Source of the DNA: Xanthomonas bonasiae
GTDB lineage: Bacteria; Pseudomonadota; Gammaproteobacteria; Xanthomonadales; Xanthomonadaceae
Assembly (NCBI RefSeq): GCF_017163705.1
Contig: NZ_JAFIWB010000040.1
Span: 1-32,088, forward strand
DNA: 32,088 nt
Direction: 5' to 3'
Below are positions 175 through 25,517 of the stretch, in pieces. Within the stretch, counting starts at the first letter, position 1, and the number at the start of each line of letters is the position of its first letter. The notes under the pieces were generated by a model. That model was not told the origin of the DNA. It saw only the letters and a list, made by a program, of their open reading frames with translations, and did no database searches. Position numbers and translations under genes: made by a program.

Positions 175-252
175 GGGGATTCGGGGATTGGGGATTCGCA
201 AAGAGCGCATTGCCCCCGCTTTACGAATCCCCAATCCCCAATCCCGAATCCC
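175..252. repeat. GGGATT-type inverted repeat after ubiE (locus 1)
   Basis: Left arm 176-198 carries three G-tracts separated by ATTC and ATT; right arm 224-252 is its C-rich complement with four C-tracts, leaving a loop of about 25 nt. Read along the ubiE mRNA, the G-rich arm starts 6 nt after the ubiE stop codon and has four G3-4 tracts with 3-4 nt spacers, so it could form a G-quadruplex or, with the other arm, a stem of over 20 bp. It may end or protect the ubiE transcript. Related copies are at 9636-9750, 11551-11655, 24215-24244 and 25492-25517. Confidence 0.9.
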
Positions 253-258
253 GGCTTC

Positions 259-1020
259 TCAGATCTTGTAGCCCGAATGGATCGCGACGATGCCGCCGGT
301 CAGGTTCTTGTAGTGGCTGCGGGCGAAGCCGGCCTCGGCCATCATGCCCTTCAGCGCGTCCTGCGGCGGATGCTTGCGGATGCTCTCGGCCAGGTACTGG
401 TAGCTGTCGGCATCCTTGGCGAACAGCTTGCCCAGGCGCGGCAGGATCTTGAACGAATGGAAGTCGTAGATCGGCTTGAACCAGTCGGCGGTGACCTCGG
501 AAAACTCCAGCACCCGCGCCTGTCCGCCGACCTTCAGCACCCGGTACATCTCGCGCAGCGCCGCGTCCTTGTCGGTGACGTTGCGCAGGCCGAAGGCGAT
601 GGTGACCAGGTCGAAGCTCTGGTCCGGGAACGGCAGCGCCTCGGCGTTGCACTGCACGTAGTCCAGGCCCGCGACCAGGCCGCGGTTGGTCAGCCGGTCG
701 CGGCCCACCGACAGCATGCCGGCGTTGATGTCGCCCAGGACCACCGCGCCGTCGTCGCCGACCCGCTCCTTCAGCAGCGCGGCGATGTCGCCGGTGCCGC
801 CGGCCAGGTCGAGCACGCGGTCGCCCGGCTTGACCTGCGCGGTGGCCACGAAATAGCGCTTCCAGGCTCGGTGGATGCCCAGGCTCATCAGGTCGTTCAT
901 CAGGTCGTAGTTGCCGGCGACCGAGGTGAACACCTCGCCGACCAGCTTCTGCTTGTCCTTGGCGGCGACGTCGCGGAAGCCGAAATGGGTGGTGCCGGAC
1001 TTGTAGGGGGATTCGCTCAT
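259..1020 (-). CDS. ubiE: Demethylmenaquinone / 2-polyprenyl-methoxybenzoquinol methyltransferase UbiE
   Basis: 253-residue class I SAM-dependent methyltransferase, the usual length for UbiE. The SAM-binding motif I is [10 protein letters not shown] (residues 69-78), preceded by the family-typical [19 protein letters not shown] (30-48), and the protein ends in the characteristic [12 protein letters not shown]. By family knowledge it carries out the C-methylation step of ubiquinone (and, where present, menaquinone) synthesis in the cytoplasm. The start is ATG at 1020 (MSESPYKSG). No Shine-Dalgarno sequence precedes it; instead a GATAAT hexamer lies 7 nt upstream, suggesting a leaderless transcript. 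A longer frame continues upstream through the porin region but is only an antisense or out-of-phase opening. Identification is firm. Confidence 0.97.
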
Positions 1021-1027
1021 GGCGGGG

Positions 1028-1033
1028 ATTATC
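1028..1033 (-). promoter_or_regulatory. Candidate -10 box of ubiE (leaderless start)
   Basis: GATAAT (5 of 6 matches to TATAAT) ends 7 nt before the ubiE ATG. With the usual 6-8 nt to the transcription start, the mRNA would begin at or next to the start codon. No convincing -35 hexamer is seen. The same spacing recurs at five other genes in the window. Confidence 0.45.
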
Positions 1034-1147
1034 GCACTGCTGGCGCCGTCATGGTCTGCGGCGTCCGGTCGCAGCCGCCGCTGCGCCGACCGACCGGGCC
1101 CGCCGGCCACGCGGCCGCCGCCCGGCGATCGCACGCCCGCGTCCGCG

Positions 1148-1171
1148 CCGCGCGCGGTGCGGCGCGCGCGG
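1148..1171 (-). terminator. GC-rich hairpin downstream of the porin gene
   Basis: A perfect 9-bp inverted repeat of alternating CG (arms 1148-1156 and 1163-1171, loop 6 nt) starts 17 nt past the porin stop codon. It lacks a U-tract, so it is not a standard intrinsic terminator, and alternating CG can arise by chance in DNA of this composition. The 167-nt porin-ubiE gap shows nothing else except the ubiE -10 candidate. Confidence 0.3.
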
Positions 1172-1187
1172 CCGCTGGGCGCGACCC

Positions 1188-2336
1188 TCAGAACTTCAGC
1201 ACCAGGCCGACGTCCACGCCCTCGATGCCGTAGCCGCCGGCGTCGCCCTGGCCGAGGTCGGCGGAGGTCTGCTCGTTGCTGTAGGCGATCGTGCAGGTGC
1301 CGCCGGCGCCGTTGTCGATCCGCGCGTAGTCGGCGTAGAGATAGGCCTTGGGCGACAGCGCGTGCTGGTAGCCCACGCCCCACTTGTTGCAGGTGTTGTC
1401 CACGTAGGACGAATCGCGCCGGCTCCAGGCCGCCTTCCACAGGCCGTTGGCGCCCATCGGCGCGGTGAAGCCCAGCAGATAGCCCTTGTGCTCGTGATAG
1501 AAGCCGAGCGCGGCGACGTCGAACGGCTGCTGGATGTCGATGCGTTCGTAGAACCCGTACAGCTTGATCGGGCCGACGTCGTAGCTGGCCCCGAACAGGT
1601 TGATCCTGAGCCGGGTCAAGCCGGGCACGTCGTTCCACCATTCCTCTTCGTGGTCGTAGCCCAGGCTCAGCGGTCCGTTGCTGTAGGCCAGGATCACCGC
1701 ATACAGCGGACTGCGGCTGTCGCGGTCGCTGACGCCGAGCAGATTCGGCGTATAGGCGAAGGTGGCGTTGAGGCCTCGCCAGGTGGGAGTGACGTAGACC
1801 ACCGCGTCCTTGGCCCGGGACACCACCACCTGCAGGGAACCGGCGCTGGCGACCGACCGGCCCTTGAACGGATCGTACTGCTTGAGCACCGCGGCGCGCC
1901 CGCCGTCGACGGTGCCGCCGAGCAGCGTCCCCCAGCCGCCGGTCGCGCCCAGCCAGGCATGCCGGGTGTAGAACGTATCGCCGCCGCTGCCGGCATCCTT
2001 GTCGCCGGTCAGGTCCACGCCGACCTCGACCTCGCCGATCAGGCGGGTGCCGTTGCCCAGGTCGTAGCCGAGCTTGAGGCCGACATTGCTGCCGTCGGAA
2101 CCGGCGGCGCTCTGCAGGTCGTTCTGGGTGCCCATGTCGGCAACTGCGCCGTTGCCGCCGCGGCGGCCGACGTAGCCGATATCCAGCGTGCCGTAGAGCG
2201 AGGCGCTGGCCGCGCCGTCGCTCCATTGCAGTCCCTGCGCCTTTTCCTGGTCCTGGGCCTGCGCCTGCGCGCCGGTCGCCACCCCTGCCGCGGCCACGGC
2301 CAGCCCGCCGAGCCCTTTCCACATCGTGGTGCGCAT
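1188..2336 (-). CDS. Outer-membrane general porin (Gram-negative porin family, trimeric 16-strand type)
   Basis: 382-residue exported protein. Residues 1 to about 25 form a signal peptide ([11 protein letters not shown], then an Ala/Val-rich core ending ATGAQAQAQ). The mature part starts with [18 protein letters not shown], the first-strand pattern of the Burkholderia/Neisseria-type porin family, continues with alternating amphipathic beta segments such as [26 protein letters not shown], and ends in a C-terminal Phe (VGLVLKF), the signal for BAM-dependent insertion. It should form a diffusion channel for small solutes in the outer membrane. The start at 2336 has a good ribosome site (AGGAGA, 7 nt upstream); the longer frame from 2360 does not. 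A candidate promoter lies about 85 nt upstream. Substrate preference cannot be told from the sequence. Confidence 0.88.
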
Positions 2337-2419
2337 CGCGTGTCTCCTGCAATCGGACAACAGCGTTTCTGCAGCCAGGCCTGCGCCGAGCCGGTGATGC
2401 GGGGGATGGGGGTAGAGCG

Positions 2420-2448
2420 TTCATAGACCCATTCGCGCGGTAAGTAAA
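2420..2448 (-). promoter_or_regulatory. Candidate sigma70 promoter of the porin gene
   Basis: On the minus strand TTTACT (2448-2443; 4 of 6 matches to TTGACA) is followed after exactly 17 nt by TATGAA (2425-2420; 4 of 6 matches to TATAAT). Transcription would start near 2413, giving a leader of about 77 nt before the porin ATG. The surrounding sequence is AT-richer than its neighbourhood. Confidence 0.4.
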
Positions 2449-2606
2449 GCCGCATGCGCGCGCCGCTGGAACGCTGATGCGGCGCGCGGGCCGGCGCTCG
2501 CAAAGTCGCCGCCACCGCAGCCGCCCTGCCCCGCGCCCGGCTTGCGGTGATGACAGCCCGCGCCGCCATGCGCACTATGGCGCTCTCCCGCCAAGGAACG
2601 CCTCCG

Positions 2607-3062
2607 ATGATCGCCACGCCCGACTACCGCGCCCTGCTCGACACCGCCATCGCCGAGGCCCGCCAGGGCCTGGCCGAGGGCGGCATCCCGATCGGCGCGG
2701 CGCTGTACCACAACGACGGCCGCCTGCTCGGCTGCGGCCACAACCGCCGCGTGCAGGAAGGCGACCCGTCGGTGCACGGCGAGACCGATGCGTTCCGCAA
2801 GGCCGGGCGCCAGCGCCGCTACAAGGACACCATCATGGTCACCACGCTGGCGCCGTGCTGGTACTGCAGCGGCCTGGTGCGGCAGTTCAACATCGGCACC
2901 GTGGTGGTCGGCGAATCGGTGACCTTCCAGGGCGGCATCGACTGGCTGCGCGACAGCGGGGTCACCGTGATCGACCTGCACAGCCAGGAATGCATCGACC
3001 TGCTCGGCGGCTACATCGCGGCCAATCCGGACGTGTGGAACGAGGACATCGGCGAGGACTGA
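2607..3062 (+). CDS. Cytosine deaminase of the yeast FCY1 type (CDA superfamily)
   Basis: 151-residue zinc deaminase. The zinc site is visible as VHGE (His57, catalytic Glu59) and APCWYC (Cys84, Cys87). Other hallmarks match yeast cytosine deaminase position by position: EGGIPIGAAL near the N-terminus, GHNRR (Asn46, equivalent to the substrate-binding Asn), YKDT before the Cys motif, VVVGESVTFQGG, and the C-terminal WNEDIGE with Asp147, which corresponds to the Asp that contacts the pyrimidine. It therefore probably deaminates cytosine to uracil in the cytoplasm, though related family members act on other bases or nucleosides. Start ATG 2607 is preceded by AAGGAA (8 nt spacing); an upstream in-frame ATG at 2547 lacks a ribosome site. 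The gene converges on the TonB receptor with only 13 nt between stops. Confidence 0.85.
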   Translation: MIATPDYRALLDTAIAEARQGLAEGGIPIGAALYHNDGRLLGCGHNRRVQEGDPSVHGETDAFRKAGRQRRYKDTIMVTTLAPCWYCSGLVRQFNIGTVVVGESVTFQGGIDWLRDSGVTVIDLHSQECIDLLGGYIAANPDVWNEDIGED

Positions 3063-3075
3063 AGCGCCGCCGCGC

Positions 3076-5244
3076 TCAGAACCGGTACTGCACGCCGGCG
3101 CTGACCGTGCGCGCCGCGCCCACGGCCACCCACGGCGTCGCCGCAACCGAACTGGTGTAGTAGGTCCGGTCGAACACGTTGTCCACGTCCAGCGACACGC
3201 GCAGCCGGTCGTCGATGCGCCAGTACGCCAGCAGCTTGGCCACGGTGTAGGCCGGCAACCGCGCCGGTGCGATACCGGCGTCGGCCTGCGCCTGGGTATA
3301 GGCCTCGGCCAGCCGCGCACCGGTATGGGTGATGCCGCCGCCGAGCCCGAGCAGGCCACCGCCGGGCAGCGGCGTCTCGTGCACCGCCAGCACGCTGCCG
3401 TTGAGCTTGGGCACGTTGATCAGGCTGCCGCCGACCTGCAGCGTGTTGTCGCGCAGCACCTGCACCCGGTTCCACGACGCGCTGGCGTTGAGCCGCCAGT
3501 GCGCGCTCAGTTGGCCGGACAGATCGGCCTCGGCGCCGCGGCTGCGCACGCGGCCGGCGGCGATCTGGTTGCCCGGATTGCGCGGATCGCCGGTGAGCAC
3601 GTTGTCCTTGACGATCTCGTACAGCGCCAGCGTGCCGCCGAGGCGTCCATCGCGCGCCTGCCATTTGCCGCCCAGCTCCAGCGCGCGGCCGCTCTCCGGT
3701 GCCGGGGTGGTGCTGGTGCCGGTGCCGTACCAGACGTCGGAGCCGTTGTTGGGGCGGAACGAACGCCCCGCATTGACGTACCACGACCACTGCTCGCCCG
3801 GCGCATAGCTCAGGCCGATGCGCGGCGTGGTCCTGGCCGGGGTCTGCGCGTAGCGGCCGCCGCTGCGGCGATCCTCCAGCGCCTGCCGGTAGCGGTCGTG
3901 GCGCAGGCCGAGCAGCAGCGTCCACTGCGCGTTCAACGCCACCGCATCCTGCAGGTACAGCGCCAGGTTGCGCTGGCGCTCGTGGGTATCGACGAACGGC
4001 AGCGGCGTCGGCGGCGCCTGGCCGTAGACCGGCGCGAACAGGTCCAGCGCATACGGTGCGGCGGCGCTGGGGCGGACCCGCAGCATGCGTTGATCGAGCA
4101 CGAAGTCGTAGGCCTCCATGCCGACCAGCAGGTCGTGGCGCCAGGTCCCGCTGCGCACCTGGCCGCGCAGTTCGGCCTGCAGCGCGCTGTCGCGCGAGGC
4201 GAAGTCGCGCCAGCGCCGCTGCCGCCACAGCGTGCGCGCATCGGCCTGCACCGCACTGGGTTCGGTGGAGTAGCCGCGCAGGCTGGCGTCGCGCCGCGAC
4301 GCGGCGAGCAGCCCGCTCCATGTGTCGGAGAACGCGTGCCGCAGCTGCAGCTGGTGATTGCGGTTCTCGACCTGCACGTCGCCATCGCCCGGCTCGCCGA
4401 GGAAGCGCGAACGCGGCAGCGCGCGCAGGTCGCCGCGCACCGCGACCACGCCGCGGTCCAGCGGCGCGCGGTGGCGCAGCCATTCGCCGTTGTAGTCCAG
4501 CGTGGTGGCCTCGCCCAGGCGCCAGGTCAGCGCCGGCGCGAGGAAACGGCGCTGCGTGCGCACGACGTCGCGGAAGCTGTGCCTGTCCTCGGCGGCGAGG
4601 TTGAGCCGGTAGGCGACGCTGTCGCCCAGCGGCCCGGTGCTGTCGGCCGCGACGCGGTAGGCGTCGTGGCTGCCGGCGGACAGTTCCAGCGCGGTCGCCG
4701 GCCGCCACTGCGGCAGTTTGGTGACGATGTTGAGCGTGCCGCCGGGCTCGCTGCTGCCGTACAGCGCGGCGGCCGGCCCTTTCAGGAACTCGATCGCCTC
4801 GATGTTGGCGGTGTCGCGCGGCGCGTTGTAGCCGCGGTTGCCGGCCAGGCCGTTGAGCAGGGTCGCACTGCCGGTGTTCTCGTTGCCGGGCAGGCCGCGC
4901 ACCGCGAAGTTGTCCCACAGCCCGCCGAAGCCGTTCTGCCGCGAGATGCCGCCAACGTAGTCCAGGGTGCCGTCCAGATGCGTCGCACCGAGGTCGTCGA
5001 TCGCCTGCCGCGGCAGCACCCGCACCGATTGCGGCAGCTGGCGCAGGCTCAGCTCGGTCTTGCTGCCCTGGGTGGCATCGGCGTAGTAGGTGCCCGAATC
5101 GCGGCGCCCGACCACGCGCACCGTGTCCAGTTCGGCGGGCTCGGACGCGGCGTCGAGCACCGCATCGGCATCGGCCGGACCGGCACTCAGGCCGGCCAGC
5201 AAGGCGGCGACGAAGGACAGCGACTGCGGCGAACGTGGCGGCAT
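3076..5244 (-). CDS. TonB-dependent siderophore receptor (FhuA/FpvA-like)
   Basis: 722-residue outer-membrane receptor. A signal peptide (residues 1 to about 28, ending near PADADA) is followed by a short linker, the plug domain (about 60-170: LRQLPQSVRVLPRQAIDD, the ferric-siderophore-receptor pattern, DYVGGISRQNGFGG, FAVRGLPG and EFLKGPAAALYGSSEPGG), and a 22-strand barrel ending in VSAGVQYRF with the C-terminal Phe. Near the C-terminus LDVDNVFDRTYYTSS is typical of the family. Role by family: TonB/ExbBD-driven uptake of a ferric siderophore. The ligand is not predictable. No N-terminal sigma-factor-signalling domain is present. The start is uncertain: ATG 5244 is used; an in-frame GTG at 5256 would add four residues, and neither has a clear ribosome site. 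It is divergent from the DUF1624 gene across an AT-rich island. Confidence 0.92.
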   Translation of the reverse strand: MPPRSPQSLSFVAALLAGLSAGPADADAVLDAASEPAELDTVRVVGRRDSGTYYADATQGSKTELSLRQLPQSVRVLPRQAIDDLGATHLDGTLDYVGGISRQNGFGGLWDNFAVRGLPGNENTGSATLLNGLAGNRGYNAPRDTANIEAIEFLKGPAAALYGSSEPGGTLNIVTKLPQWRPATALELSAGSHDAYRVAADSTGPLGDSVAYRLNLAAEDRHSFRDVVRTQRRFLAPALTWRLGEATTLDYNGEWLRHRAPLDRGVVAVRGDLRALPRSRFLGEPGDGDVQVENRNHQLQLRHAFSDTWSGLLAASRRDASLRGYSTEPSAVQADARTLWRQRRWRDFASRDSALQAELRGQVRSGTWRHDLLVGMEAYDFVLDQRMLRVRPSAAAPYALDLFAPVYGQAPPTPLPFVDTHERQRNLALYLQDAVALNAQWTLLLGLRHDRYRQALEDRRSGGRYAQTPARTTPRIGLSYAPGEQWSWYVNAGRSFRPNNGSDVWYGTGTSTTPAPESGRALELGGKWQARDGRLGGTLALYEIVKDNVLTGDPRNPGNQIAAGRVRSRGAEADLSGQLSAHWRLNASASWNRVQVLRDNTLQVGGSLINVPKLNGSVLAVHETPLPGGGLLGLGGGITHTGARLAEAYTQAQADAGIAPARLPAYTVAKLLAYWRIDDRLRVSLDVDNVFDRTYYTSSVAATPWVAVGAARTVSAGVQYRF

Positions 5245-5263
5245 GGAGCGAAGCACCCAAAAA

Positions 5264-5281: not shown

Positions 5282-5304
5282 AATACTGACACGAACCGCA
5301 GCGC

Positions 5305-6471: not shown

Positions 6472-6565
6472 CGACGCCCGCGCCGGGTCGGCCCGGCCCC
6501 GGATTCATCGCCGTGCAATGCCGGCATGCTCGACTGGTCGCCCTGTCCGCGCCTGGAGACCTGCG

Positions 6566-8280: not shown

Positions 8281-9648
8281 TTACAGGATGTAACGGCTCA
8301 GATCCGGATCCTGCACCAGCTCGCCCAGGTGCGTGTTGACGTAGGCGGCATCGACGACGACGCTCTGGCCGTCGCGATCCGGCGCCTCGAAGCTCAACGC
8401 ATCGAGCAGACGCTCGAGCACCGTGTGCAGGCGCCGCGCGCCGATGTTCTCCTGGCGCTCGTTGACCAGGAACGCGATCTCGGCAAGGCGGTCGATCGCA
8501 TCCTCGGTGAAGCTCAGGGTCACGCCTTCGGTCAGCAGCAGCGCTTCGTACTGCTTGCTCAGTGCCGCCTTCGGCTCGGTGAGAATGCGGATGAAATCGT
8601 CCTTGGACAGCGCCGACAGTTCCACGCGGATCGGGAAGCGGCCCTGCAGCTCCGGGATCAGGTCGCTGGGCTTGGCCAGGTGGAACGCGCCCGAGGCGAT
8701 GAACAGGATATGGTCGGTCTTGACCGTGCCGTACTTGGTGCTGACGTTGGAGCCTTCGACCAGCGGCAGCAGGTCGCGCTGCACGCCTTCGCGCGACACG
8801 TCGCCGCCGGACGACCCGGCCTCGCCGCGCTTGGCGACCTTGTCGATCTCGTCGATGAACACGATGCCGTGCTGCTCGCAGGCCTCGATCGCCGCGGCGC
8901 GCACGTCTTCTTCGTTGACCAGCTTGCCCGCCTCTTCCTCGATCAGCAGCGGCCGCGCCGCCTTGATCGTCAGCTTGCGCGACTGCGACTTGCTGCCGCC
9001 CAGGTTGGAGAACATCTGCCGCAGCTGCTGGCCCATTTCCTCCATGCCCGGCGGGGTCATGATGTCCATGCTGACGTTGACCGCCACGTCCAGCTCGATC
9101 TCGCGCTCGTCCAGTTCGCCGGCGCGCAGCATGCGCCGGAACTTGCTGCGGGTGTCGTTGTCCTGCGCCGAGGGCTCGTTGCGCGCGGCTTCCGGATCGA
9201 AGCCGATGCCGGCGCTGCGCCGCGGCAGCAGCGCGTCGAGGATGCGGTCTTCGGCGCGCTCCTCGGCCTGGGTGCGCACGCGGGTCTTGGCCTGTTCGCG
9301 ATACAGCTTGACCGCGGTGTCGGCCAGGTCGCGCACGATCTGCTCCACGTCCTTGCCGACGTAGCCGACCTCGGTGAAGCGCGTCGCCTCGACCTTGACG
9401 AACGGCGCATTGGCCAATGTCGCCAGGCGCCGCGCGATCTCGGTCTTGCCGACGCCGGTGGGGCCGATCATCAGGATGTTCTTGGGCATCACTTCGTTGC
9501 GCAGCGCATCGGGCAGCTGCATGCGCCGCCAGCGGTTGCGCAGCGCGATCGCCACCGCGCGCTTGGCGTCGTGCTGGCCGACGATGTGGCGGTCCAGCTC
9601 CTGCACGATTTCGCGCGGGGTCATGGTTGAGGTGTCGGGATTGGGCAT
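8281..9648 (-). CDS. hslU: HslU (ClpY), ATPase subunit of the HslVU protease
   Basis: 455-residue AAA+ unfoldase. Walker A is GPTGVGKT (62-69), the pore loop is GYVG (95-98), Walker B is IVFIDE (262-267), the arginine-finger/sensor region follows around [13 protein letters not shown], and the C-terminus DLSRYIL is the tail that docks into HslV. The I domain (about 110-240) is of normal size. It unfolds substrates and feeds them to HslV in the cytoplasm; the system is normally heat-shock controlled. The start is ambiguous: ATG 9648 gives the usual Xanthomonas length, but its first codons (MPNPDT) are made from the GGGATT-type repeat, whereas ATG 9624 begins exactly at the conserved [17 protein letters not shown]. 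Neither has a ribosome site. hslV lies 100 nt upstream on the same strand, unlike the tight spacing in enterobacteria. Confidence 0.96.
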
Positions 9649-9750
9649 TGGGGATTGGAGATTCGTAAGAGCGGAGTAGGAACGATCGAGGCGTGTCCGA
9701 GCACAGGGAAAGGAGCGCTTTTGCGAATCCCCAATCCCGACTCCCGAATC
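9636..9750. repeat. GGGATT-type inverted repeat between hslV and hslU (locus 2)
   Basis: Arms 9636-9665 (G-rich on the plus strand) and 9724-9750 (C-rich) enclose about 58 nt and fill the whole hslV-hslU gap. In the hslV mRNA the G-rich arm begins inside the stop codon itself. The far arm overlaps the first codons of hslU when ATG 9648 is used. Each arm has three good G- or C-tracts, one fewer than a canonical G-quadruplex. Confidence 0.88.
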
Positions 9751-10300
9751 ACAGCTCCTCGACCACCACGTTGCGATTGGTATAGATGCAGATGTCGCCG
9801 GCGATGTTCAGCGCTTCGACCGCGATGGTCTTGGCGTCCAGTTCGGTGTGGCCGAGCAGCGCGCGCGCCGCCGACAGCGCGTAGGAGCCGCCGGAGCCGA
9901 TGGCGATGATGCCGTCCTCCGGCTCGATCACGTCGCCGGTGCCGCTGATGATCAGCGAGGTTTCCTTGTCGGCCACCGCCAGCAACGCCTCGAGCTTGCC
10001 CAGGCGGCGTTCGGTGCGCCAGTCCTTGGCCAGTTCCACCGCTGCGCGGGTCAGCTGGCCGTGCTTCTCGAGCTTGGCCTCGAACAGTTCGAACAGGGTG
10101 AACGCATCGGCGGCGGCGCCAGCGAAGCCGGCCAGCACCTGGCCGTCGCGGCCGAGCCGGCGCACCTTGCGCGCATTGCCCTTCATCACGGTATGGCCCA
10201 GCGTCACCTGACCATCGCCGGCCACGGCGACATGGCCGTTGCGGCGCACCGACAGGATCGTGGTGGCGTGGAAAACGTTGGGATTCTGACTGGGGTCCAT
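9749..10300 (-). CDS. hslV: HslV (ClpQ), peptidase subunit of the HslVU protease
   Basis: 183-residue N-terminal-nucleophile (Thr) peptidase. The propeptide [12 protein letters not shown] precedes the catalytic Thr13 in [10 protein letters not shown], so maturation must remove 12 residues rather than only Met as in E. coli. Other family motifs are [29 protein letters not shown], and [14 protein letters not shown] near the C-terminus. Twelve subunits form the proteolytic chamber capped by HslU. ATG 10300 is supported by a perfect AGGAGG 4 nt upstream; an upstream in-frame ATG at 10336 is not. The DUF3079 gene is 48 nt upstream on the same strand. Confidence 0.97.
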
Positions 10301-10348
10301 GCGGCCTCCTGAGCGGTTCTTCAGGTGTGGGGGCATGCCGCCTCCCGT

Positions 10349-10573
10349 TCAAGCATGCGCGTGTCGATCCTCGCCGATCTTCGCGCGTCCCGGATGCTCG
10401 GGCTCCGGCTCGATGCCCCACAGCAGGTACCAGTGCTCGCCCTGCAATTCGATCGGATGCATGACGCGTCCGGAGCCGTTGCCGCACGCCAGGTCCGCCG
10501 CCGCGCAGTAGCGGTCGCACCCCCAGCAGATCCGCTCGGGATGTGCGGGTTGCAACGGAAAGGGTTTCGCCAT
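10349..10573 (-). CDS. Small Cys-rich DUF3079 protein
   Basis: 74 residues, no signal peptide. The conserved part is MAKPFPLQPAHPERICWGCD followed by RYC and DLACGNGS: four Cys residues (16, 19, 23 and 30) in a C-x2-C-x3-C-x6-C arrangement, followed by HPIELQGEHWY. This matches DUF3079 as I know it. The cysteines suggest a metal site, possibly zinc or an Fe-S centre, but no function is established. ATG 10573 was chosen because the conserved block begins there and GAGGCAGG lies just upstream; a longer frame from 10645 adds non-conserved residues. It lies between xerC and hslV on the same strand, 115 nt after xerC. Confidence 0.8.
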   Translation of the reverse strand: MAKPFPLQPAHPERICWGCDRYCAAADLACGNGSGRVMHPIELQGEHWYLLWGIEPEPEHPGRAKIGEDRHAHA

Positions 10574-10688
10574 CGACCTGCCTCGCTGCATGTTCCGGCG
10601 GACAGTGTCCCCGCCCGCAGCGGCGCGCGCCTTGATCCAGAACAAGCGCGCGAACGGACGGACTTACCGCGTCCGTGCGTTCAGCCGG

Positions 10689-11663
10689 TCACGACTTGCG
10701 CCTGGCGCGCGGGTGCGCGGCGTCGTAGACCTTGGCCAGGTGCTGGAAATCCAGGTGGGTGTAGATCTGCGTGGTGGCGATGTCGGCGTGGCCGAGCAGT
10801 TCCTGCACGCCGCGCAGGTCGCCGGAGGATTCGAGGATGTGGCTGGCGAAGCTGTGCCGCAGCATGTGCGGGTGCACGTGCTTGAACAGGCCCTGGCGCC
10901 CGGCCAGCTGCTTGATCCGGATCTGCACCGCGCGCGCGCCGATCGGCGCGCCGCCGCGGCCCGGAAACACCGGCGCCTCGGCCGCCGCCTTGGTCTCCGC
11001 CTGCCATTCCAGCAGCGCCTTGCGCGCGTGCGAGCCGACCGGCACCAGCCGCTGCTTGTTGCCCTTGCCGAGCACGCGGACCAGGCCGCTGGCGAAATCC
11101 AGGTCGCGCCAGCGCAGCGCGCACAGCTCGCTCAGGCGCAGCCCGGAGGAATAGAACAGTTCCAGCAGTGCGCGGTCGCGCAGGCCCAGCGGCACGTCGG
11201 TCGGCACTTCGACCAGGCGCACCGCCTCGTCCGCGTCCAGTACCTGCGGCAGCTTGCGCGGCGCCTTCGGCGCGCGCAGCGCGGCGGCCGGACTGGCGGC
11301 GATCTGCCCATGCTTGAGCAACCACGCATAGAAACTGCGGCACGCCGACAGGCGCCGCTGCAGGCTCTTCGGCGACAGCCCGCGGCGGTGCTCGGCGGCG
11401 ATGAAATGGCGCAGCTGCTCGGCGCCGAGCGCGGCGATGTCGCCGCCGGCATTGTCCGCCGCCCAGGCCGCCAGCGCAGCGAGATCGCGGCGGTAGGCGT
11501 CCAGGGTGTGCGCGGACATGCGCCGTTCGACCTGCAGATAGCTGAGGAACCGGGATTGGGGATTCGGGATTGGGGATTCGGCATCAACAGCCGACGCATC
11601 GGCGCGCGCGTCGGCGCGCTTTTTCCGAGTCCCGAGTCCCGAGTCCCGCGTCCCGCCCTTCAT
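10689..11663 (-). CDS. xerC: Tyrosine recombinase XerC with a repeat-encoded N-terminal extension
   Basis: 324 residues. All catalytic residues are present and correctly spaced: Arg176 (SGLRLSEL), Lys200 (LGKGNKQR), His266 and Arg269 (HPHMLRHSF), His292 (LLGHADI) and Tyr301 (IYTHL). The SAM-like core-binding domain runs from about residue 39 (FLSYLQVERR). With XerD it resolves chromosome dimers at dif. The ATG at 11663 overlaps the DUF484 stop (ATGA), so translation is probably coupled. Residues 3-38 (GGTRDSGLG... and ESPIPNPQSR) are encoded by a GGGATT-type repeat that kept the frame open; they are not part of the family. No other in-frame start lies before the core; the next Met (residue 49) would remove the first helix. 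Confidence 0.95.
   Translation of the reverse strand: MKGGTRDSGLGTRKKRADARADASAVDAESPIPNPQSRFLSYLQVERRMSAHTLDAYRRDLAALAAWAADNAGGDIAALGAEQLRHFIAAEHRRGLSPKSLQRRLSACRSFYAWLLKHGQIAASPAAALRAPKAPRKLPQVLDADEAVRLVEVPTDVPLGLRDRALLELFYSSGLRLSELCALRWRDLDFASGLVRVLGKGNKQRLVPVGSHARKALLEWQAETKAAAEAPVFPGRGGAPIGARAVQIRIKQLAGRQGLFKHVHPHMLRHSFASHILESSGDLRGVQELLGHADIATTQIYTHLDFQHLAKVYDAAHPRARRKS
11551..11655. repeat. GGGATT-type repeat inside the 5' end of xerC (locus 3)
   Basis: On the plus strand 11551-11580 has four G-tracts spaced by ATT or ATTC. 11626-11655 is a C-rich arm with CGAGTCCC units, that is, G-rich in the sense strand with GACTC in place of GATTC. The arms pair imperfectly through G-T matches. 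In the mRNA the G-rich arm starts within 4 nt of the DUF484 stop codon. Both arms are translated as part of XerC. Confidence 0.88.
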
Positions 11664-12331
11664 GCGAAGCGCTGCAGCGCCACCGTCAGCGACTCGCCCA
11701 TCATGCGCAGGAACAAGGTGCCCATGCCGGGATAGAAGCGGTTCGGATCGCGGCTGCCGACCGCGAGCAGGCCCACGCCCGGCAACGGCAGCAGCGCGGT
11801 GGACTGCACGTCCTCGACGCGCTCGGCGTACAGCAGCGCCTGCTTTTCCGGCTGCAGGCGGCCGCAGATCGGCTCGCCGTCCTTCAGGCAGTCGCGAAAC
11901 GGCGCCAGCCGCGGATCGTCCTGCGCCAGGATCTGCAGCCACGGCGCCTGCTCCAGCCCGGGCACCGGCCACAGCAGCACGATGCTGACCAGGTCGCCCT
12001 GGAAATCCTCCTGCAGCGACGCGGCCATCGCGCGCACGCTGTCGGCGGCGCTGGTCTGCCGCATCAGCGCCAGGGTCAGCTGATGGGTCCGCACCGCCAG
12101 GCGCTCGTTGACCTGGGCATTGCCGGCCAGCTCGGACAGGCGCCGCGACAGCTCGCGGTTCTTGTCGCGCAGCACTTCCAGCTGGTAGCTCGCCAGCGAC
12201 GCGGTCGGGCCGTCGTCGCGCGGCACCACCAGGGTCAGCGCCAGGTCGGGGAACTGTTTCAGGAACGCCGGATGGCGGCGCAGCCATGCGGCGATTTCGT
12301 GCGCGCCGATCTTGTCCTGGGTCTCGCTCAT
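11660..12331 (-). CDS. DUF484 family protein (YigA-like, GAF-type fold)
   Basis: 223 residues, cytoplasmic. The N-terminal part ([25 protein letters not shown]) carries the DUF484 hallmark V-x-x-FLxxHPxFF-like pattern in a variant form, followed by an Arg/Glu-rich helix (about 48-70) that could be a coiled coil, and a C-terminal GAF-like domain ending [18 protein letters not shown]. Function is unknown; in E. coli the homologue yigA also lies between dapF and xerC. Both ends overlap neighbours by 4 nt: the ATG with the dapF stop and the stop with the xerC start, a sign of translational coupling. The stop is immediately followed by the G-rich repeat. Confidence 0.9.
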
Positions 12332-18371: not shown

Positions 18372-18403
18372 CGTGCTTTCTCTTCGTGCCACGACAAGAC
18401 GAA

Positions 18404-18431: not shown

Positions 18432-18438
18432 GCAGCGG

Positions 18439-20544: not shown

Positions 20545-20610
20545 GGGTCACGTCCAGGAGAACAGCCCGGAACCGTAGCATGCAGGGCCGCGGCCCTCCC
20601 CTGCCGAAGG

Positions 20611-20913: not shown

Positions 20914-20984
20914 GGCGGCGACTCCGGAGCAGGGCTGAGGCGTACAGCCTGCCGCGCGGCCATCTCAACGGCTGCGACCCACTA

Positions 20985-21013
20985 TTGACATCACTTTCGC
21001 CCGATACTGGATA
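20985..21013 (+). promoter_or_regulatory. Candidate promoter of the lipocalin gene
   Basis: A perfect -35 hexamer TTGACA (20985-20990) is followed after 17 nt by TGGATA (21008-21013), a poor -10. Transcription would start near 21020, 26 nt before the lipocalin ATG. The patch is AT-richer than its surroundings. Confidence 0.35.
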
Positions 21014-21045
21014 GCGTGTCTCTTCAAGCCCCGGATCCCTGCCCT

Positions 21046-21630
21046 ATGCGCCTGCTTTCCCTGTTCGCCTCCGTGCTGCTGCTCGGCATGGCCGTCCCCC
21101 TGCCGGCGGCACGGGCGAAATCCCCGGAGCAAGAACCCTCGCAGCAACCGCCGATCGACCTGCAGCGCTTCATGGGCCGCTGGTACGTGATCGCGCACGT
21201 GCCCTATTTCGCCGAGCGCGGGCATGTCGCCAGCAGCGACGAGTACACGCTCAAGGAAGACGGCAAGATCGCCGTGCGCTACCAGTACCGCGAAGGGTTC
21301 GACGAGCCGGTCAAGGAAGTCACCTCGCGCGCCACGGTCAAGGAGGGCACCGGCGACCGCCGCTGGACCACCTGGTTCTTCGCCGTGGTCCCGACCAAGT
21401 ACCGCATCCTCGAGGTGGCGCCGGACTATTCCTGGGCGCTGATCGACTATCCCGGCCGCGACCTGGCCTGGGTGTTCTCGCGCACGCCGGACATGGACTA
21501 CAAGCAGTATCGCGAGCTGGTCGGCAAGCTGGACCACGATTACGGGATCAAGGTGGACAAGCTCAAGCGCGTGGCGCAGCGCCGCGACCAGGTCGGCAAG
21601 CTCGGTTTCGAAGTGCCGAGCAAGCCCTGA
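21046..21630 (+). CDS. Exported lipocalin (Blc-like)
   Basis: 194 residues. The signal peptide (residues 1 to about 23, ending AAARA after PLP) has no lipobox Cys, so unlike E. coli Blc this protein should be a soluble periplasmic one. The lipocalin motif 1 is LQRFMGRWYVIAHVPYF with the invariant GxW; later IDYPGRDLAWVFSRTPDMD is the conserved Blc-type strand G-H region with the closing Arg. It should bind a lipid or other hydrophobic ligand at the envelope, as in the Blc family linked to membrane stress. ATG 21046 starts the signal peptide; an in-frame GTG at 21016 is less likely. HxlR follows 102 nt downstream on the same strand. Confidence 0.88.
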   Translation: MRLLSLFASVLLLGMAVPLPAARAKSPEQEPSQQPPIDLQRFMGRWYVIAHVPYFAERGHVASSDEYTLKEDGKIAVRYQYREGFDEPVKEVTSRATVKEGTGDRRWTTWFFAVVPTKYRILEVAPDYSWALIDYPGRDLAWVFSRTPDMDYKQYRELVGKLDHDYGIKVDKLKRVAQRRDQVGKLGFEVPSKP

Positions 21631-21732
21631 GGCGTGTCGCCGATCCCCGAATAGGTTGCCCCCCCATCGCCTGCCGCTCAGCGCAGCGCCAGCCGGCCCC
21701 CGTATGATCGGGTCGGTCCGTCCCCCAGACAG

Positions 21733-22158
21733 GTGCACCGATTGGCCAGCGTTCCTTCCGACGTCCCCTGCACTGCGCCGCGCGTCCCCGCCGCCGATCC
21801 CACGCGCGGCCAGGTGTTCGCGCAGCACTGTCCCTCGCGCGCCGTCCTCAGCCATGTGACCAGCCGCTGGGGCGTGCTGGTGCTGGTGGCGCTGCGCAAG
21901 GGCACGCATCGTTTCGGCGACCTGCGCCGCAAGCTCGAAGGGGTCAGCGAGAAGATGCTGTCGCAGACCCTGCAGGCGCTGGAAGCGGACGGCCTGGTGC
22001 AACGCACCGCCTATCCGGTAGTCCCGCCGCATGTGGAATACGCGCTGACCCCGCTGGGCGAAGACGCGGCGACGCATGTGCAGGCGCTGGTGGACTGGAT
22101 CGAGACCAACATCGGCGCCATCCTGAGCAGCGGCAACCCGACGCCGGATGCACTGTAG
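21733..22158 (+). CDS. HxlR-family winged-helix transcription regulator
   Basis: 141 residues. The winged-helix signature is clear: SRWGVLVLVALRKGTHRFGD, then LRRKLEGVSEKMLSQTLQALE, then DGLVQRTAYPVVPPHVEYAL (wing) and TPLGED. A Cys in the QHCPSRAVL segment precedes the domain, at the usual place of the HxlR redox-sensing Cys. It is a DNA-binding repressor or activator for an unknown, usually neighbouring target. The start is GTG 21733, with weak initiation signals; a TATGAT hexamer lies 24 nt upstream. The TAG stop codon is part of a REP element (CTGTAGGAGC), so the C-terminus was probably reset by that element. Confidence 0.85.
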   Translation: MHRLASVPSDVPCTAPRVPAADPTRGQVFAQHCPSRAVLSHVTSRWGVLVLVALRKGTHRFGDLRRKLEGVSEKMLSQTLQALEADGLVQRTAYPVVPPHVEYALTPLGEDAATHVQALVDWIETNIGAILSSGNPTPDAL

Positions 22159-22227
22159 GAGCGGCTTCAGCCGCGACAGGCGGTATCAGCTAACGGCAAG
22201 CCCGTCGCGGCTGAAGCCGCTCCTACA
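22154..22227. repeat. REP inverted pair between convergent regulator genes
   Basis: Two perfect 24-nt complementary arms (22154-22177 and 22204-22227) with the head TGTAGGAGCGGCTTCAGC and a 26-nt loop. The element overlaps the HxlR stop codon (22156-22158) and ends 29 nt from the WYL-regulator stop. It could end transcription from both sides. Confidence 0.93.
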
Positions 22228-22256
22228 ACGGCAGCATCCCGCCCGCTACCAACGCC

Positions 22257-23228
22257 TCAGTCGTCGCTGTAGTTGCTCAGCGCCAGCGACAGCAGCGACT
22301 TGGCCTGTTCGCGCAGCGAGCGCGGCTCGACGATTTCCGCGTCCGACCCGTAGTGCAGCACGTCCATCAGCAACTCGCGCGAGACGCTGTACGGCACCTT
22401 CAGTTCGTAGCGGCCGTCGGCCAGGAAGCGCCCCTGCTGCTTGGAATGCCAGTGCTCGTCGGCGACCCAGCGCGCGGCCTTGGGACTGAACACGATCGTC
22501 GCCCAGCCCTTGGGCGCGCCGGAGAAGATCCCGTAGCTGGCCGCCAGCTGCGAGTCCAGTTCCTCGTCGGCCACGTCCTGCGCCACTTGGTCGAGCAGCC
22601 GCGCATGGTTGATGCGGTCCACCGCGAAGCTGCGCACCGCATCGCGGCCGTGGTCCCAGGCGTCCAGGTACCAGTTGTCGCGGTAGTGGGTGATGCGCTG
22701 CGGCGACACCGTGCGCTTGGTCGATTCGTCGGTGGAGCGCGCGCGGTAGTCGAACGACAGCCGCTTGCGCTCCAGCACCGCCGAGGCGACGGTGCGGAAA
22801 CTGGCCTCGTCGAGCTTGCGCCCGCGGTGCGGGATCACCCGCACCCGCTCCACCGGCCAATGGGTGGCCCCGGCCTGCGCCGCCAGCAGGCTCTCGATGC
22901 GCTGCTGCAGCGGCGCCAGCACCGAGGACAGCACCCCGCCGCCGGTCCGCGCCAGCAACTGCTGCGAGGCCAGCAGGGCGTGCAGTTCCTCGGAACTGAG
23001 CCATAGCCCGGGCAGTTCGAAGCGGTCGCTCTCGCCGGACTCGTAGCGGAACCCGGCCTCGCCGTCGCCCTCGACCGGGGCCATCAGCGCATCGCGCAGG
23101 AACGCCAGGTCGCGATAGACGGTGGCGCGGGAGCAGCTCAGTTCGTCCTGCAGGCGCGCCACCGTCACCGGATAGCGGGCGGACTTGAGCAGCCGGTGCA
23201 GTGCGTTGATGCGTTCGTAGCGGTCCAT
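22257..23228 (-). CDS. WYL-domain transcription regulator (YafY/DeoR type)
   Basis: 323 residues in three parts: an N-terminal HTH (MDRYERINALHRLLKSARYP, then DELSCSRATVYRDLAFL), a linker helix region, the WYL domain (about 140-215, RDNWYLDAWDHGRDAVRSFA with the name-giving Trp-Tyr-Leu) and a C-terminal WCX extension (VFSPKAARWVADEHWHSKQ to about 310). WYL domains are thought to sense ligands, often nucleic acids or nucleotides, and adjust DNA binding. No ribosome site precedes ATG 23228; a CATAAT hexamer ends 7 nt upstream. It is divergent from the DUF481 gene over 194 nt, so autoregulation or control of that gene is possible. Confidence 0.92.
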   Translation of the reverse strand: MDRYERINALHRLLKSARYPVTVARLQDELSCSRATVYRDLAFLRDALMAPVEGDGEAGFRYESGESDRFELPGLWLSSEELHALLASQQLLARTGGGVLSSVLAPLQQRIESLLAAQAGATHWPVERVRVIPHRGRKLDEASFRTVASAVLERKRLSFDYRARSTDESTKRTVSPQRITHYRDNWYLDAWDHGRDAVRSFAVDRINHARLLDQVAQDVADEELDSQLAASYGIFSGAPKGWATIVFSPKAARWVADEHWHSKQQGRFLADGRYELKVPYSVSRELLMDVLHYGSDAEIVEPRSLREQAKSLLSLALSNYSDD

Positions 23229-23235
23229 GGCCCCG

Positions 23236-23241
23236 ATTATG
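23236..23241 (-). promoter_or_regulatory. Candidate -10 box of the WYL regulator gene
   Basis: CATAAT (5 of 6 matches) ends 7 nt before the ATG at 23228, no ribosome site; predicts a leaderless mRNA. Confidence 0.45.
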
Positions 23242-23360
23242 TCTGAAGTCCGTGGCGGAAGAACGCGCCGCGGCCGGTCGCGCGCGCCAACCGCGGCGAG
23301 GCGGCCGAACCGGCGATGAAGCCGGGGTCCGCCGGCGGCCGGGGCGTCATGTAGATCCGG

Positions 23361-23366
23361 TATGAT
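23361..23366 (+). promoter_or_regulatory. Possible -10 box of the DUF481 gene
   Basis: TATGAT, 5 of 6 matches to TATAAT, in the AT-richest part of the 194-nt divergent gap; a start near 23373 would leave a 50-nt leader containing the GGAGAG ribosome site. No -35 match is seen. Confidence 0.3.
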
Positions 23367-23422
23367 GAAATCGTTTCCATTCCGTTAGCCGAAGGCTGCG
23401 TCCTCAACCGGAGAGTAAAGCC

Positions 23423-24211
23423 ATGCCCCGCTGCGCCACCGTAGTATCCGCCATCACCTTGTTGCTGCTGTGCACCTCCCCGGCCCTGGCCGCCGATGTG
23501 CCCGCCCCGCCGGCGGAACCAGGCAGTTCACCGTGGAGCGGCTCCGGCGAACTGGGACTCTCCTCCTCGCGCGGCAACAGCTCCAACGAAAGTTTCAACG
23601 GCCGGCTCAAGGGCCAGTACCTGGATGGCGACTGGATCCACAGCATCGACCTGTTCGCCTTGCGCGCCAGCGCCGAATACACCAACACCAACGACGACGG
23701 CAGCACCGAGCGCGTGCGCCAGACCACGTCCAACCGCTACACCGGCAGCGCCGGCAGCGCGCTGCAGTTGGGCGAGCACCGCCAGCTGACCGCTTCGCTG
23801 CGCTACGAGCGCGACGATTTCGCCACCTACGACCGCCTGGCCACGATCGGCATCGGCTACGGCACGCGGATCATGGACGGCGATCACAGGAGCCTCGATG
23901 TGCAGATCGGCCCCGGCGTGCGCCGCGCCCACGACGTGGAAGAGGACCGCACCGAGACCGGGCTGATCGGCCGCGGCCTGGTCGACTTCAAGTACGGCCT
24001 GACCGACAACACCGAGCTGGCCAATACCCTGCTGGTCGAATCGGGTTCCTACAACACCTTCGCGCAGAACGACCTGGGCATCTCGGTCAGCATGAACTCG
24101 CGGCTGGCGCTGAAGGCCGGCTGGCAGGCGCGCCACAACAGCGATGTCAGCGACGACAAGAAGAAGACCGATACGCTGGCTACGATGAACGTGGTCTACA
24201 AGTTCAAGTGA
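23423..24211 (+). CDS. DUF481 outer-membrane beta-barrel protein (YdiY-like)
   Basis: 262 residues. A signal peptide (residues 1 to about 23, ending SPALAA) is followed by a Pro-rich linker and then the DUF481 barrel: WSGSGELGLSSSRGNSSNES is the family opening, further strands alternate polar and hydrophobic residues (SLRYERDDFATYDRLATIGI, LDVQIGPGVRRA), and the chain ends TLATMNVVYKFK. The family is often annotated as salt-stress-induced outer-membrane protein; the real role is unknown. ATG 23423 has GGAGAG 7 nt upstream. A GGGATT-type repeat starts 3 nt after the stop codon, followed by a REP pair. Confidence 0.9.
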   Translation: MPRCATVVSAITLLLLCTSPALAADVPAPPAEPGSSPWSGSGELGLSSSRGNSSNESFNGRLKGQYLDGDWIHSIDLFALRASAEYTNTNDDGSTERVRQTTSNRYTGSAGSALQLGEHRQLTASLRYERDDFATYDRLATIGIGYGTRIMDGDHRSLDVQIGPGVRRAHDVEEDRTETGLIGRGLVDFKYGLTDNTELANTLLVESGSYNTFAQNDLGISVSMNSRLALKAGWQARHNSDVSDDKKKTDTLATMNVVYKFK

Positions 24212-24214
24212 GGC

Positions 24215-24244
24215 CGGGATTGGGGATTCGGGATTGGGGAGTCG
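24215..24244 (+). repeat. GGGATT-type repeat after the DUF481 gene (locus 4)
   Basis: Single arm with four G-tracts (GGGATTGGGGATTCGGGATT, then GGGG) starting 3 nt after the stop codon, G-rich on the coding strand. It fits the canonical pattern of a G-quadruplex with 3-4 nt loops. No complementary arm follows. Confidence 0.9.
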
Positions 24245-24331
24245 CGACGGCAGGTGCGGCGGCGATCGGGCCGGCGCATGGTCGGCCAGCCGTCGGGGTC
24301 GATCCCGGCCTGTCGGCTGACGGCGCTTTCC

Positions 24332-24400
24332 TGTAGGAGCGGCTTCAGCCGCGACAGGAAGTTCCTGGTGAGGCCCGGCCGCGGCTGAAGCCGCTCCCAC
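24332..24400. repeat. REP inverted pair between DUF481 and hemC
   Basis: Arms 24332-24355 and 24377-24400 (TGTAGGAGCGGCTTCAGC head; the right arm ends in the CCCAC variant) pair with a 21-nt loop. It lies between convergent genes, 40 nt past the hemC stop. Confidence 0.92.
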
Positions 24401-24440
24401 GGGTTGGCCGCCTTGCAAACGGGGCGCCTCGCTCGGCCTC

Positions 24441-25364
24441 TCAAGCCGGCAGCGCGGCGTCCAGCAGCTCGCGCGCGCCGGCGCCCAGCAGCGCCGCGGC
24501 GACGGCCTGGCCCAGTGCCTCGGGCTCGTGTGCCGGACGCTGCGCCTCGGCACGCACCAGGCGCCCGTCGGCGACGCCGCCGACCATGCCCTGCAACAGC
24601 AGGTCTTCGCCCTGCCAGTGCGCGAACGCGGCCACCGGTACGTGGCAACTGCCGTGCAGCGCGCGGTTCATCGCCCGCTCGGCCTCCACGCAGCTGCGGG
24701 TGGCGGCATCGTCGAGCGCGGCGAACAGGCCCAGCGCGGCCGCGTCGTCGCCGCGGCATTCCACCGCGATGGCGCCCTGCGCCGGCGCCGGCAGCCAGTC
24801 CGGCGCCTGCAGGCGCTGGGTGATGCGTGCCTCCAGGCCCAGCCGCTGCAGGCCGGCGCAGGCCAGCACGATGCCGTCGTAGCCGCCGTTGTCGAGCTTG
24901 GCCAGGCGCGTGTTGACGTTGCCGCGCAGGTCCAGCAACTGCAGGTCCGGGCGCCGCGCGCGCAGCTGCGCCTGCCGGCGCAACGACGAGGTGCCCACCC
25001 GCGCGCCCAGCGGCAGCGCCTCCAGCGACGCATAGAGATTGGAGATCAGCGCGTCGGCCGGATCGGCGCGGGTCAGGATCGCCGGCAGCGCGAACGGCGG
25101 GTCCAGCTCCATCGGCACGTCCTTCAGCGAATGCACTGCGCAGTCTGCCTCGCCGCGCAGCATCGCCAGCTCCAGCTCCTTCAGGAACAGGCCTTTGCCG
25201 CCGATCGCCGCCAGCGAGCGGTCCAGCACTTCGTCGCCACGGGTGCTCATCGGCACCAGCACCACGTCCAGCTGCGGGTGCGCCTGGCGCAGGCGTTCGG
25301 CGACATGTTCGCTCTGCCACAGGGCGAGCGGACTCTTGCGGGTAGCGATGCGCAGGATCTTCAT
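24441..25364 (-). CDS. hemC: Hydroxymethylbilane synthase (porphobilinogen deaminase)
   Basis: 307 residues. Family motifs: [33 protein letters not shown] with the catalytic Asp82, [24 protein letters not shown] and the dipyrromethane-cofactor Cys240 in [12 protein letters not shown] (commonly GGCxxP). It polymerises four porphobilinogen units into hydroxymethylbilane in the cytoplasmic heme pathway. ATG 25364 begins the conserved first strand; the longer frame from 25451 is not conserved. No clear ribosome site; GATAAT ends 6 nt upstream. algR lies 157 nt upstream on the same strand, as in pseudomonads. No hemD follows in this window: downstream is a REP pair and the convergent DUF481 gene. 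Confidence 0.96.
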
Positions 25365-25370
25365 CCGCCC

Positions 25371-25376
25371 ATTATC
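25371..25376 (-). promoter_or_regulatory. Candidate -10 box of hemC
   Basis: GATAAT (5 of 6 matches) ends 6 nt before the hemC ATG, predicting a leaderless mRNA and expression independent of algR. Confidence 0.45.
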
Positions 25377-25491
25377 GCGGAAAGCGCCGCCACGGGCCGC
25401 AGGCGCGAAGGCCCACCGCCGCTGCCGATCGCCGCCCGTCCACAGGCGCACGCCCGGTCACCCCAAATCCCAACGCCGCACGGCCACTCAT

Positions 25492-25517
25492 CCCGAATCC
25501 CCAATCCCCAATCCCGG
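25492..25517 (-). repeat. GGGATT-type repeat after algR (locus 5)
   Basis: Single arm, G-rich on the minus strand, with four G-tracts of 3-4 nt separated by ATT or ATTC. It starts 4 nt after the algR stop codon, in the algR-hemC gap. A degenerate unit (CCCCAAATCCC) is at 25461-25471. Confidence 0.88.

Follow-up and report, generated by a model that had tools for sequence, protein, structure and literature searches.

The 32,088-nucleotide stretch of Xanthomonas bonasiae analysed here (contig NZ_JAFIWB010000040.1, positions 1 to 32,088; contig 34 of a 5.38-Mb genome), hereafter the window, carries five copies of a G-rich heptad repeat behind ubiE, hslV, a DUF484 gene, a DUF481 gene and an algR-like gene. 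These are almost certainly the heptameric G-rich repeats of Xanthomonas described by Rehm et al. 2015 (PMC4692102). We propose, with a probability of about 0.5, that such heptads form a recurrent stop-codon module that acts in the mRNA, which is the explanation that best accounts for the observations as a whole. The evidence concerns position and strand: arms without an inverted partner start close behind stop codons and in one orientation far more often than random placement predicts, and the same five genes carry the arm across the genus.

Genome-wide, GGGATTNGGGATT has 508 matches (251 and 257 on the two strands), as against 5 (3 and 2) for the reversed pattern. Placement was measured in a sample of 1.23 Mb made up of 60 stretches of 20 kb and the window, which is included in the counts; the stretches were picked by contig number with the genome hit list already known, and one of them (contig 7, 80-100 kb) was picked because hits were listed there. 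Genes were called with a home-made codon-usage caller, which gave 1001 genes (83% coding) with approximate start positions. The sample holds 79 arms, compared with 4 on the reversed sequence. Intergenic arms number 61 (79 minus 18 dropped), and 37 of them begin 0-15 nt behind a stop codon with the G-rich strand in sense, whereas random position and strand inside the same gaps gave a mean of 4.9 and a maximum of 13 in 5000 runs. The commonest stop-to-arm distance among the 61 is 6 nt. The stops before the 37 arms are TGA in 31 cases, TAG in 4 and TAA in 2, against 712, 178 and 102 of the 992 complete called genes, indicating that no particular stop codon is required.

Inverted pairs complicate such counts. 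The ubiE, hslV and DUF484 copies of the window consist of a G-rich arm, a loop and a C-rich arm (degenerate in the hslV pair) and are hence G-rich on both strands, so that their orientation is no evidence by itself and the strand rule is tested alone only by the DUF481 and algR copies. In the sample, 26 intergenic arms are partnerless (79 minus 4 at stretch ends, 44 partnered and 5 overlapping called genes). Twenty-two of these start at most 15 nt behind a stop codon and are G-rich in sense, compared with a mean of 2.3 and a maximum of 8 under random placement. In convergent gaps, each of the 14 partnerless arms lies behind the gene whose sense strand is the G-rich one, and none at the opposite stop; in co-directional gaps, 8 are sense and 3 antisense, a difference that is not significant alone (binomial p 0.23). 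The C-rich strand was found 0-15 nt behind a stop in none of the 76 arms with a called 3' neighbour, and two of these arms overlap a called gene in the C-rich sense, one covering the gene's 3' end by 24 nt. A preliminary description of the window had stated that the repeat always sits directly behind a stop codon, and that copies at random distances from stops, or equally often C-rich in sense, would count against this rule. Neither pattern was found, given 22 of 26 and 0 of 76, but the word "always" is too strong, since 4 of the 26 partnerless arms are found in other places, and the DUF484 copy probably belongs to the beginning of the xerC coding sequence. With partnerless arms separated from pairs, placement and strand rule nevertheless look sharper in this genome than reported by Rehm et al. 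2015.

The tails of 29 window genes were compared in 20 genomes of the genus, counting strict arms at most 15 nt from the stop. Such an arm follows ubiE in 16 genomes, hslV in 18, DUF484 in 11, DUF481 in 16 and algR in 10, which is 71 of 100 gene-genome cells, and two more cells, both DUF484, have one at 16-25 nt. The other 24 genes have a strict arm in 0 of 417 cells, and in 2 of these 417 GGGA occurs two or more times no further than 45 nt from the stop. At hslV, the spacing of 3 nt is kept in 16 of the 18 carriers, and the units themselves drift across species between GGGATT, GGGAAT, GGGACT and GGGACC. As the strict arm is found, among the 20 genomes, at the same five genes and at none of the others in the region, these data show that the sites are old, vertically kept and orientation-specific. 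Active transposition was rejected on the same 0 of 417 cells.

Seen by eye, the recurrent module consists of the stop codon, usually 0-8 nt that often end in GCC, GGGATTN mostly in four units, and then CG(T/C)AA(A)AGC or something similar. The 44 stop-proximal arms have two units in 7 cases, three in 12, four in 22, five in 2 and six in 1. Leaving aside 2 edge arms, a convergent partner lies within 200 nt of 19 of 42 stop-proximal arms, 22-167 nt beyond the first arm, compared with 1 of 42 in the same-strand control; overall, 44 of 77 arms in this genome are paired. Predicted RNA folds had a z-score below -2 for 17 of the 19 partnered arms and 5 of the 23 partnerless arms. For paired copies, position and predicted fold thus show that an mRNA hairpin is possible, with its base beside the stop codon and, in some co-directional pairs, also beside the next start. 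A described RNA family was rejected, as an Rfam search of the window gave no match above the gathering score.

The orientation relative to the transcript fits a role in RNA better than DNA functions that are blind to orientation, and we tentatively suggest that the module acts at the RNA level close to the stop, like the repetitive extragenic palindromes (REPs) near stop codons in Escherichia coli. In the mRNA, the element would be a structure just behind the terminating ribosome: a paired element would form a hairpin, and a single arm possibly a quadruplex or a protein-binding array. Such a structure would slow the release of the ribosome or the entry of exonucleases, and the influence on 3' exonucleases or ribosome release that the preliminary description raised is plausible. 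In operons, the spacer would be folded away and the downstream start could be reached from the upstream stop. With hundreds of repeat arms per genome, the stop rule and the strand asymmetry make translation termination and mRNA 3' ends worth examining.

Several observations weigh against this proposal. Rehm et al. (PMC4692102) state that no role in gene regulation could be identified and that the C-rich strand is found on transcripts about as often as the G-rich one; for aligned genes of X. campestris pv. campestris (Xcc) they give 30% same-strand and 35% opposite-strand repeats, counts that include both arms of pairs. Of the 42 stop-proximal arms, 23 are partnerless and mostly fold no better than shuffled sequences (median z -0.4), so a hairpin cannot explain all copies. 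Within the genome, the arms of a pair match each other no better than they match the arms of other elements (17.1 vs 17.3; 211 of 300 shuffles as good). Across species, the arms match better than shuffled ones at hslV (n=18; 4 of 1000 shuffles) and DUF484 (n=12; 1 of 1000), in statistics that leave the kinship of the species uncontrolled, and at ubiE they do not (n=8; 438 of 1000). Genomes G002 and G016, with 3 doublets each genome-wide, have no repeat at any of the five sites, so that the repeat is dispensable there. Finally, at four Rhodanobacteraceae loci 2 of 14 arms lie at most 15 nt from a stop called by a caller trained on little data; 5 of the 14 stand beside a start, and others overlap the called gene end or follow it by 19-24 nt.

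Some of these points would suit a neutral or selfish repeat, whose heptads are products of slippage and hairpin-templated copying, have no function and persist only where they harm neither coding nor initiation. We regard this as rather unlikely. It agrees with the free variation of unit number and middle letters between species, with the use of GGGATT-type heptads as polymorphic variable-number tandem repeat loci in Xanthomonas (PMC8002079, PMC6459536), with the tandem amplification seen at ubiE in Xcc-like genomes and with the two genomes that live without the repeat. Tolerance alone, however, predicts a spread over intergenic DNA. It would not predict that 22 of 26 partnerless arms stand at most 15 nt from a stop, all in one orientation, where 2.3 are expected, nor that strict arms are completely lacking in the 417 other gene-genome cells of the region.

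Rehm et al. (PMC4692102) proposed that four G-tracts behind the stop fold into a G-quadruplex in mRNA or DNA, and showed quadruplex formation in vitro for the oligonucleotides of that study. In line with this, four units are the commonest number (22 of 44 stop-proximal arms) and 25 of the 44 have at least four; in unit 3 of orthologous sites, the three Gs are mutated 0, 6 and 3 times against 23 for T5 in pairs (n=47), and 0, 0 and 2 times against 9 in single arms (n=26). On the other hand, 19 of the 44 arms fall short of four units, A4 is not required for a quadruplex but is conserved to the same degree as the Gs, and in unit 4 of this genome G2 and G3 are mutated in 7 and 7 and T5 in 8 of 23. 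Heptads without G-tracts in sister genera provide a natural test of how important the quadruplex is. The named genomes were reached through hslV loci, and doublets were counted in 16 genomes. Luteimonas marina has 166 GTGATTN doublets and Thermomonas ACE 363, with 0 and 1 in the controls; Pseudoxanthomonas has 16, and no other genome more than 4. In stretches of L. marina that were chosen for holding GTGATTN sites, and that hence measure placement and not density, 17 of 44 intergenic GTGATT arms lie at most 15 nt behind a stop in sense (random mean 3.8, maximum 13), 22 arms face the start of the next gene, 20 of these 22 ending at most 25 nt from it, and 40 of the 44 are paired. The same module thus exists without G-tracts, and its shared layout also speaks for the stop-codon module proposed above. 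The G-tract, on which the preliminary description had centred, is not essential across the order, and we rejected the quadruplex as the common factor; as the explanation of the module it seems quite improbable to us, even though L. marina and Thermomonas also hold GGGAWT doublets (83 and 58).

The remaining counts show how the words are distributed. GGAACGAGGAACGA occurs 39 times in Pseudoxanthomonas, 15 in Lysobacter GX 14042, 10 in Stenotrophomonas daejeonensis, once in Lysobacter M2-1 and not in the rest. GGGAWTN doublets are most numerous in Dokdonella (451), X. vasicola (333), L. mephitis (278), Rhodanobacter (211) and Frateuria (193), followed, beside L. marina and Thermomonas ACE, by Pseudoxanthomonas (65) and Lysobacter M2-1 (50), with at most 6 in the rest and none in S. 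maltophilia D5.1 and Halopseudomonas. These numbers indicate that genomes hold mixtures with one dominant word. The hslV-hslU gap, inspected by eye, contains inverted pairs of GTGATTN in L. marina, inverted pairs of GGAACGA-like heptads in S. daejeonensis and Pseudoxanthomonas, and REP-like pairs in S. maltophilia LMG 978 and Lysobacter M2-1; Arenimonas and Lysobacter GX 14042 have a short gap free of repeats. For GGAACGA arrays, placement was judged at this gap only, by eye. In Frateuria (locus L021, near 10582) and Dokdonella (locus L016, near 10522), the array appears by eye to overrun the end of hslV, and the repeat itself may supply the hslV stop codon there. Outside the order, Halopseudomonas has a heptad array of GCTTGAA (locus L023).

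One might speculate that the Lysobacterales share one kind of stop-proximal RNA element, with a constant position, heptad period and inverted-pair layout but a dominant word that is swapped between lineages, that is, a sequence-flexible coupling element; we consider this joint reading doubtful. The words would be GGGATTN/GGGAATN in Xanthomonas, Dokdonella, Rhodanobacter and Frateuria, GTGATTN in L. marina and Thermomonas, and GGAACGA in a Lysobacter and also in Pseudoxanthomonas, which has other heptads besides; mixtures are frequent. In operons, the stop-to-start gap would be folded into a hairpin, bringing the terminating ribosome to the next start, which often has no Shine-Dalgarno (SD) sequence. 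In the 15 co-directional gaps of L. marina with arms at both ends, a median of 13 nt is left outside the hairpin. Among hairpin-filled co-directional gaps, 2 of 15 in L. marina (Fisher p 0.08) and 1 of 8 in this genome (p 0.27) have an SD-like motif before the next start; when pooled, 3 of 23 do, against 222 of 586 among the remaining gaps that are 20 nt or longer (p 0.015). This scarcity speaks for the proposed stop-codon module, but as starts are approximate and one of the 8 gaps is the probably coding DUF484-xerC copy, we treat it as a lead only.

The end of transcription had also been suggested as the role of the repeat. A terminator would suit the 14 of 26 partnerless arms that lie between convergent genes, and, according to Rehm et al. 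(PMC4692102), transcripts start or stop at quadruplex-capable repeats more often than at controls. Yet a U-rich tail follows only 1 of 42 elements, on which ground intrinsic termination is unsupported and was rejected, and among the window copies one occupies the hslV-hslU gap and another probably forms part of a translated gene start (DUF484-xerC), making a transcription terminator very unlikely in our view. Four terminator-like matches were found in 9500-11800, two of them in the DUF484-xerC loop on the strand opposite to these genes.

We give equally little credit to the idea that the repeat is a REP, a bacterial interspersed mosaic element (BIME) or a miniature inverted-repeat transposable element, moved with a preference for gene ends by a REP-associated tyrosine transposase (RAYT) or an IS200-type transposase. 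The palindromic pairs with like ends and the uneven numbers across the genus (3 to 688 doublets per genome) are as this idea would have it, and the nearly repeat-free G002 and G016 also lack PF01797, which other repeat-poor genomes do possess. Y1_Tnp loci, however, speak against it: among 18 of these loci of candidate RAYTs, chosen from 15 heptad-bearing genomes, 12 have adjoining GT(A/G)GGAG-type REPs and none has a heptad array, and a RAYT-borne REP was rejected for this reason. Moreover, no other gene of the region carries a strict arm among the 20 genomes, and at ubiE, the site inspected for traces of insertion, the genomes that lack the element (G001, G017, G002 and G016) have unrelated DNA and show, by eye, neither a clean empty site nor a target duplication. 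By eye, no GT(A/G)G head is present inside the listed heptad arms, and GTAGGAG REPs follow some arms as separate elements. In the window, a REP (GTAGGAGCGGCTTCAGCCGCGAC) lies at 24333-24355, about 90 nt behind the DUF481 arm, and like REPs adjoin many Y1_Tnp genes of the genus. Genome G001, which has few heptads, contains 31 Y1_Tnp matches, 21 of which are near-equal-scoring, near-full-profile copies, each with one internal TAG.

Two of the sites vary within the genus in ways worth recording. In the hslV-hslU gap (loci L141-L160), two versions are seen by eye, GGGAAT with one flank and GGGATT with another, seemingly mixed regardless of overall similarity, which suggests exchange by recombination. 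At the ubiE loci L200, L206 and L211-L215 (genomes G019, G003, G011, G013, G005 and G008), tandem amplification has multiplied the element along with a REP-like GTGGGAGGGACTTCAGTCCC unit. In six genomes, ubiE is followed by additional incomplete copies of its own C-terminus (about residues 210-253), and in G003 and G019 the repeated stretch visibly takes in the 3' end and stop codon of ubiE; a similar arrangement, BIMEs carrying rayt 3' ends, is described in PMC2817692. In Xcc-like regions a partner was found for 25 of 48 arms and in the same-strand control for 16, the partner test being weak there owing to tandem copies.

Direct reading of the letters confirmed all five copies of the window, each G-rich in the sense strand of the upstream gene, with genes on both strands, as the preliminary description had it (Table 1). 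Its stop-to-arm distances of 6, 0, 2-4, 3 and 4 nt (ubiE, hslV, DUF484, DUF481 and algR) hold for ubiE; for the others we find 3 nt at hslV, 5 nt at DUF484 (stop TGA 11660-11662) if counted to a GGGACGC unit and 12 nt if counted to the strict GGGACTC arm, 4 nt at DUF481, and 0 nt to GGGGCC or 6 nt to GGGATT at algR. The DUF481 arm has no convergent arm by the strict rule. Pfam supports the gene names ubiE (PF01209), hslV (PF00227), DUF484 (PF04340) and DUF481 (PF04338), and the algR-like gene has Response_reg and LytTR matches.

Table 1. Heptad arms of the window and the xerC gene, in window positions.
Feature	Position	Strand	Remark
ubiE G-arm, four GGG(G)ATT heptads	226..252	-	6 nt past TGA 259-261
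ubiE element, convergent partner arm	175..196	+	C-rich in ubiE sense; inverted repeat with G-arm
hslV G-arm GGGAGTCGGGATTGGGGATT	9726..9745	-	3 nt past TGA 9749-9751
hslV degenerate partner arm	9637..9663	+	shortly before hslU start, ATG 9624 on minus strand (by eye)
DUF484 G-arm, GGGACTC type	11628..11647	-	probably translated within the xerC N-terminus
DUF484-xerC partner arm	11552..11578	+	C-rich in sense; within open xerC frame, just before SAM-like domain
xerC (PF02899 and PF00589)	10689..11663	-	putative start ATG 11663-11661 overlaps DUF484 stop as ATGA
DUF481 single G-arm, four heptads	24216..24242	+	4 nt past TGA 24209-24211
algR single G-arm, GGGGCC and three heptads	25496..25521	-	directly after TGA 25522-25524

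The DUF484 copy differs from the others, as it is most likely translated as the N-terminal tail of XerC and not an intergenic element. All 20 genomes have ATGA at the end of DUF484, and the ATG of this overlap opens, in 18 of them (not in G005 and G018), a frame that runs through the spacer into the conserved XerC core; the coding assignment rests on this overlap and open frame. The home-made caller had set the xerC start further in. The match to the XerC SAM-like domain starts where the C-rich arm ends. Among the 18 open-frame genomes, G002 and G016 have no heptads in the spacer and several others have only degenerate ones. The xerC case suggests that some copies are coding, and studies that treat all copies as intergenic would miss the constraint of the reading frame.

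The preliminary description took the element to be undescribed, which is not the case. Rehm et al. 2015 (PMC4692102) report that heptads on the coding strand are enriched in the 50 bp behind stops and those on the non-coding strand in the 50 bp before starts, and give 186 repeats in Xcc and 183 in X. axonopodis pv. citri, 70 and 75 convergent pairs, respectively, and a preference for four units. All five window copies have at least two GGGANTN heptads over at least 14 bp, as the repeats of that study do, and its 0-50 bp zone on the coding strand takes in the 37 (of 61) intergenic arms that start at most 15 nt behind a stop in sense. One exact GGGAATC unit, which its search rule demands, is absent from the window copies, whose units are GGGATT, GGGAGT, GGGACT and GGGACG with no GGGAAT. 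As GGGAAT units are present at orthologous sites in other genomes of the genus, we judge this demand to be a search threshold and not a border of the family. Unit, four-unit preference, convergent pairs, intergenic location and placement near stops (coding strand) and starts (non-coding strand) are shared with the repeats of Rehm et al.; different here are the spacing resolved to a few nucleotides with a GCC boundary, the separate test of partnerless arms, the probably coding case and the G-tract-free heptads with the same placement in another genus. Our analysis thus adds to that work the 6-nt mode of spacing, the same five genes across the genus, the probably coding xerC copy and the GTGATTN module of L. 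marina. A literature search, largely at title level and with subscription papers mostly outside reach, found no later description, heptads of related genera or stop-codon rule beyond the papers cited here.

Among other known repeats, those of Nostoc (GGGGATT/GGGGACT; PMC4692102) have nearly the same heptamer but are more often intragenic and form few inverted pairs. The TAACTGA direct repeats of Beggiatoaceae (MacGregor 2015, PMC4679880) are likewise an abundant intergenic heptamer near gene borders with a suspected post-transcriptional action, but they stand mostly directly before starts, have another unit, and a single inverted repeat is reported for that genome. E. coli REPs located within 15 nt of a stop codon are reported to stall ribosomes (PMC12306157, citing Liang 2015) and share with the heptad module a structured repeat at most 15 nt from the stop in the 3' part of transcripts. 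REPs are, however, short palindromes with a GT(A/G)G head that are tied to RAYTs (PMC2817692), whereas the heptad arrays show neither feature and many of them are single-armed.

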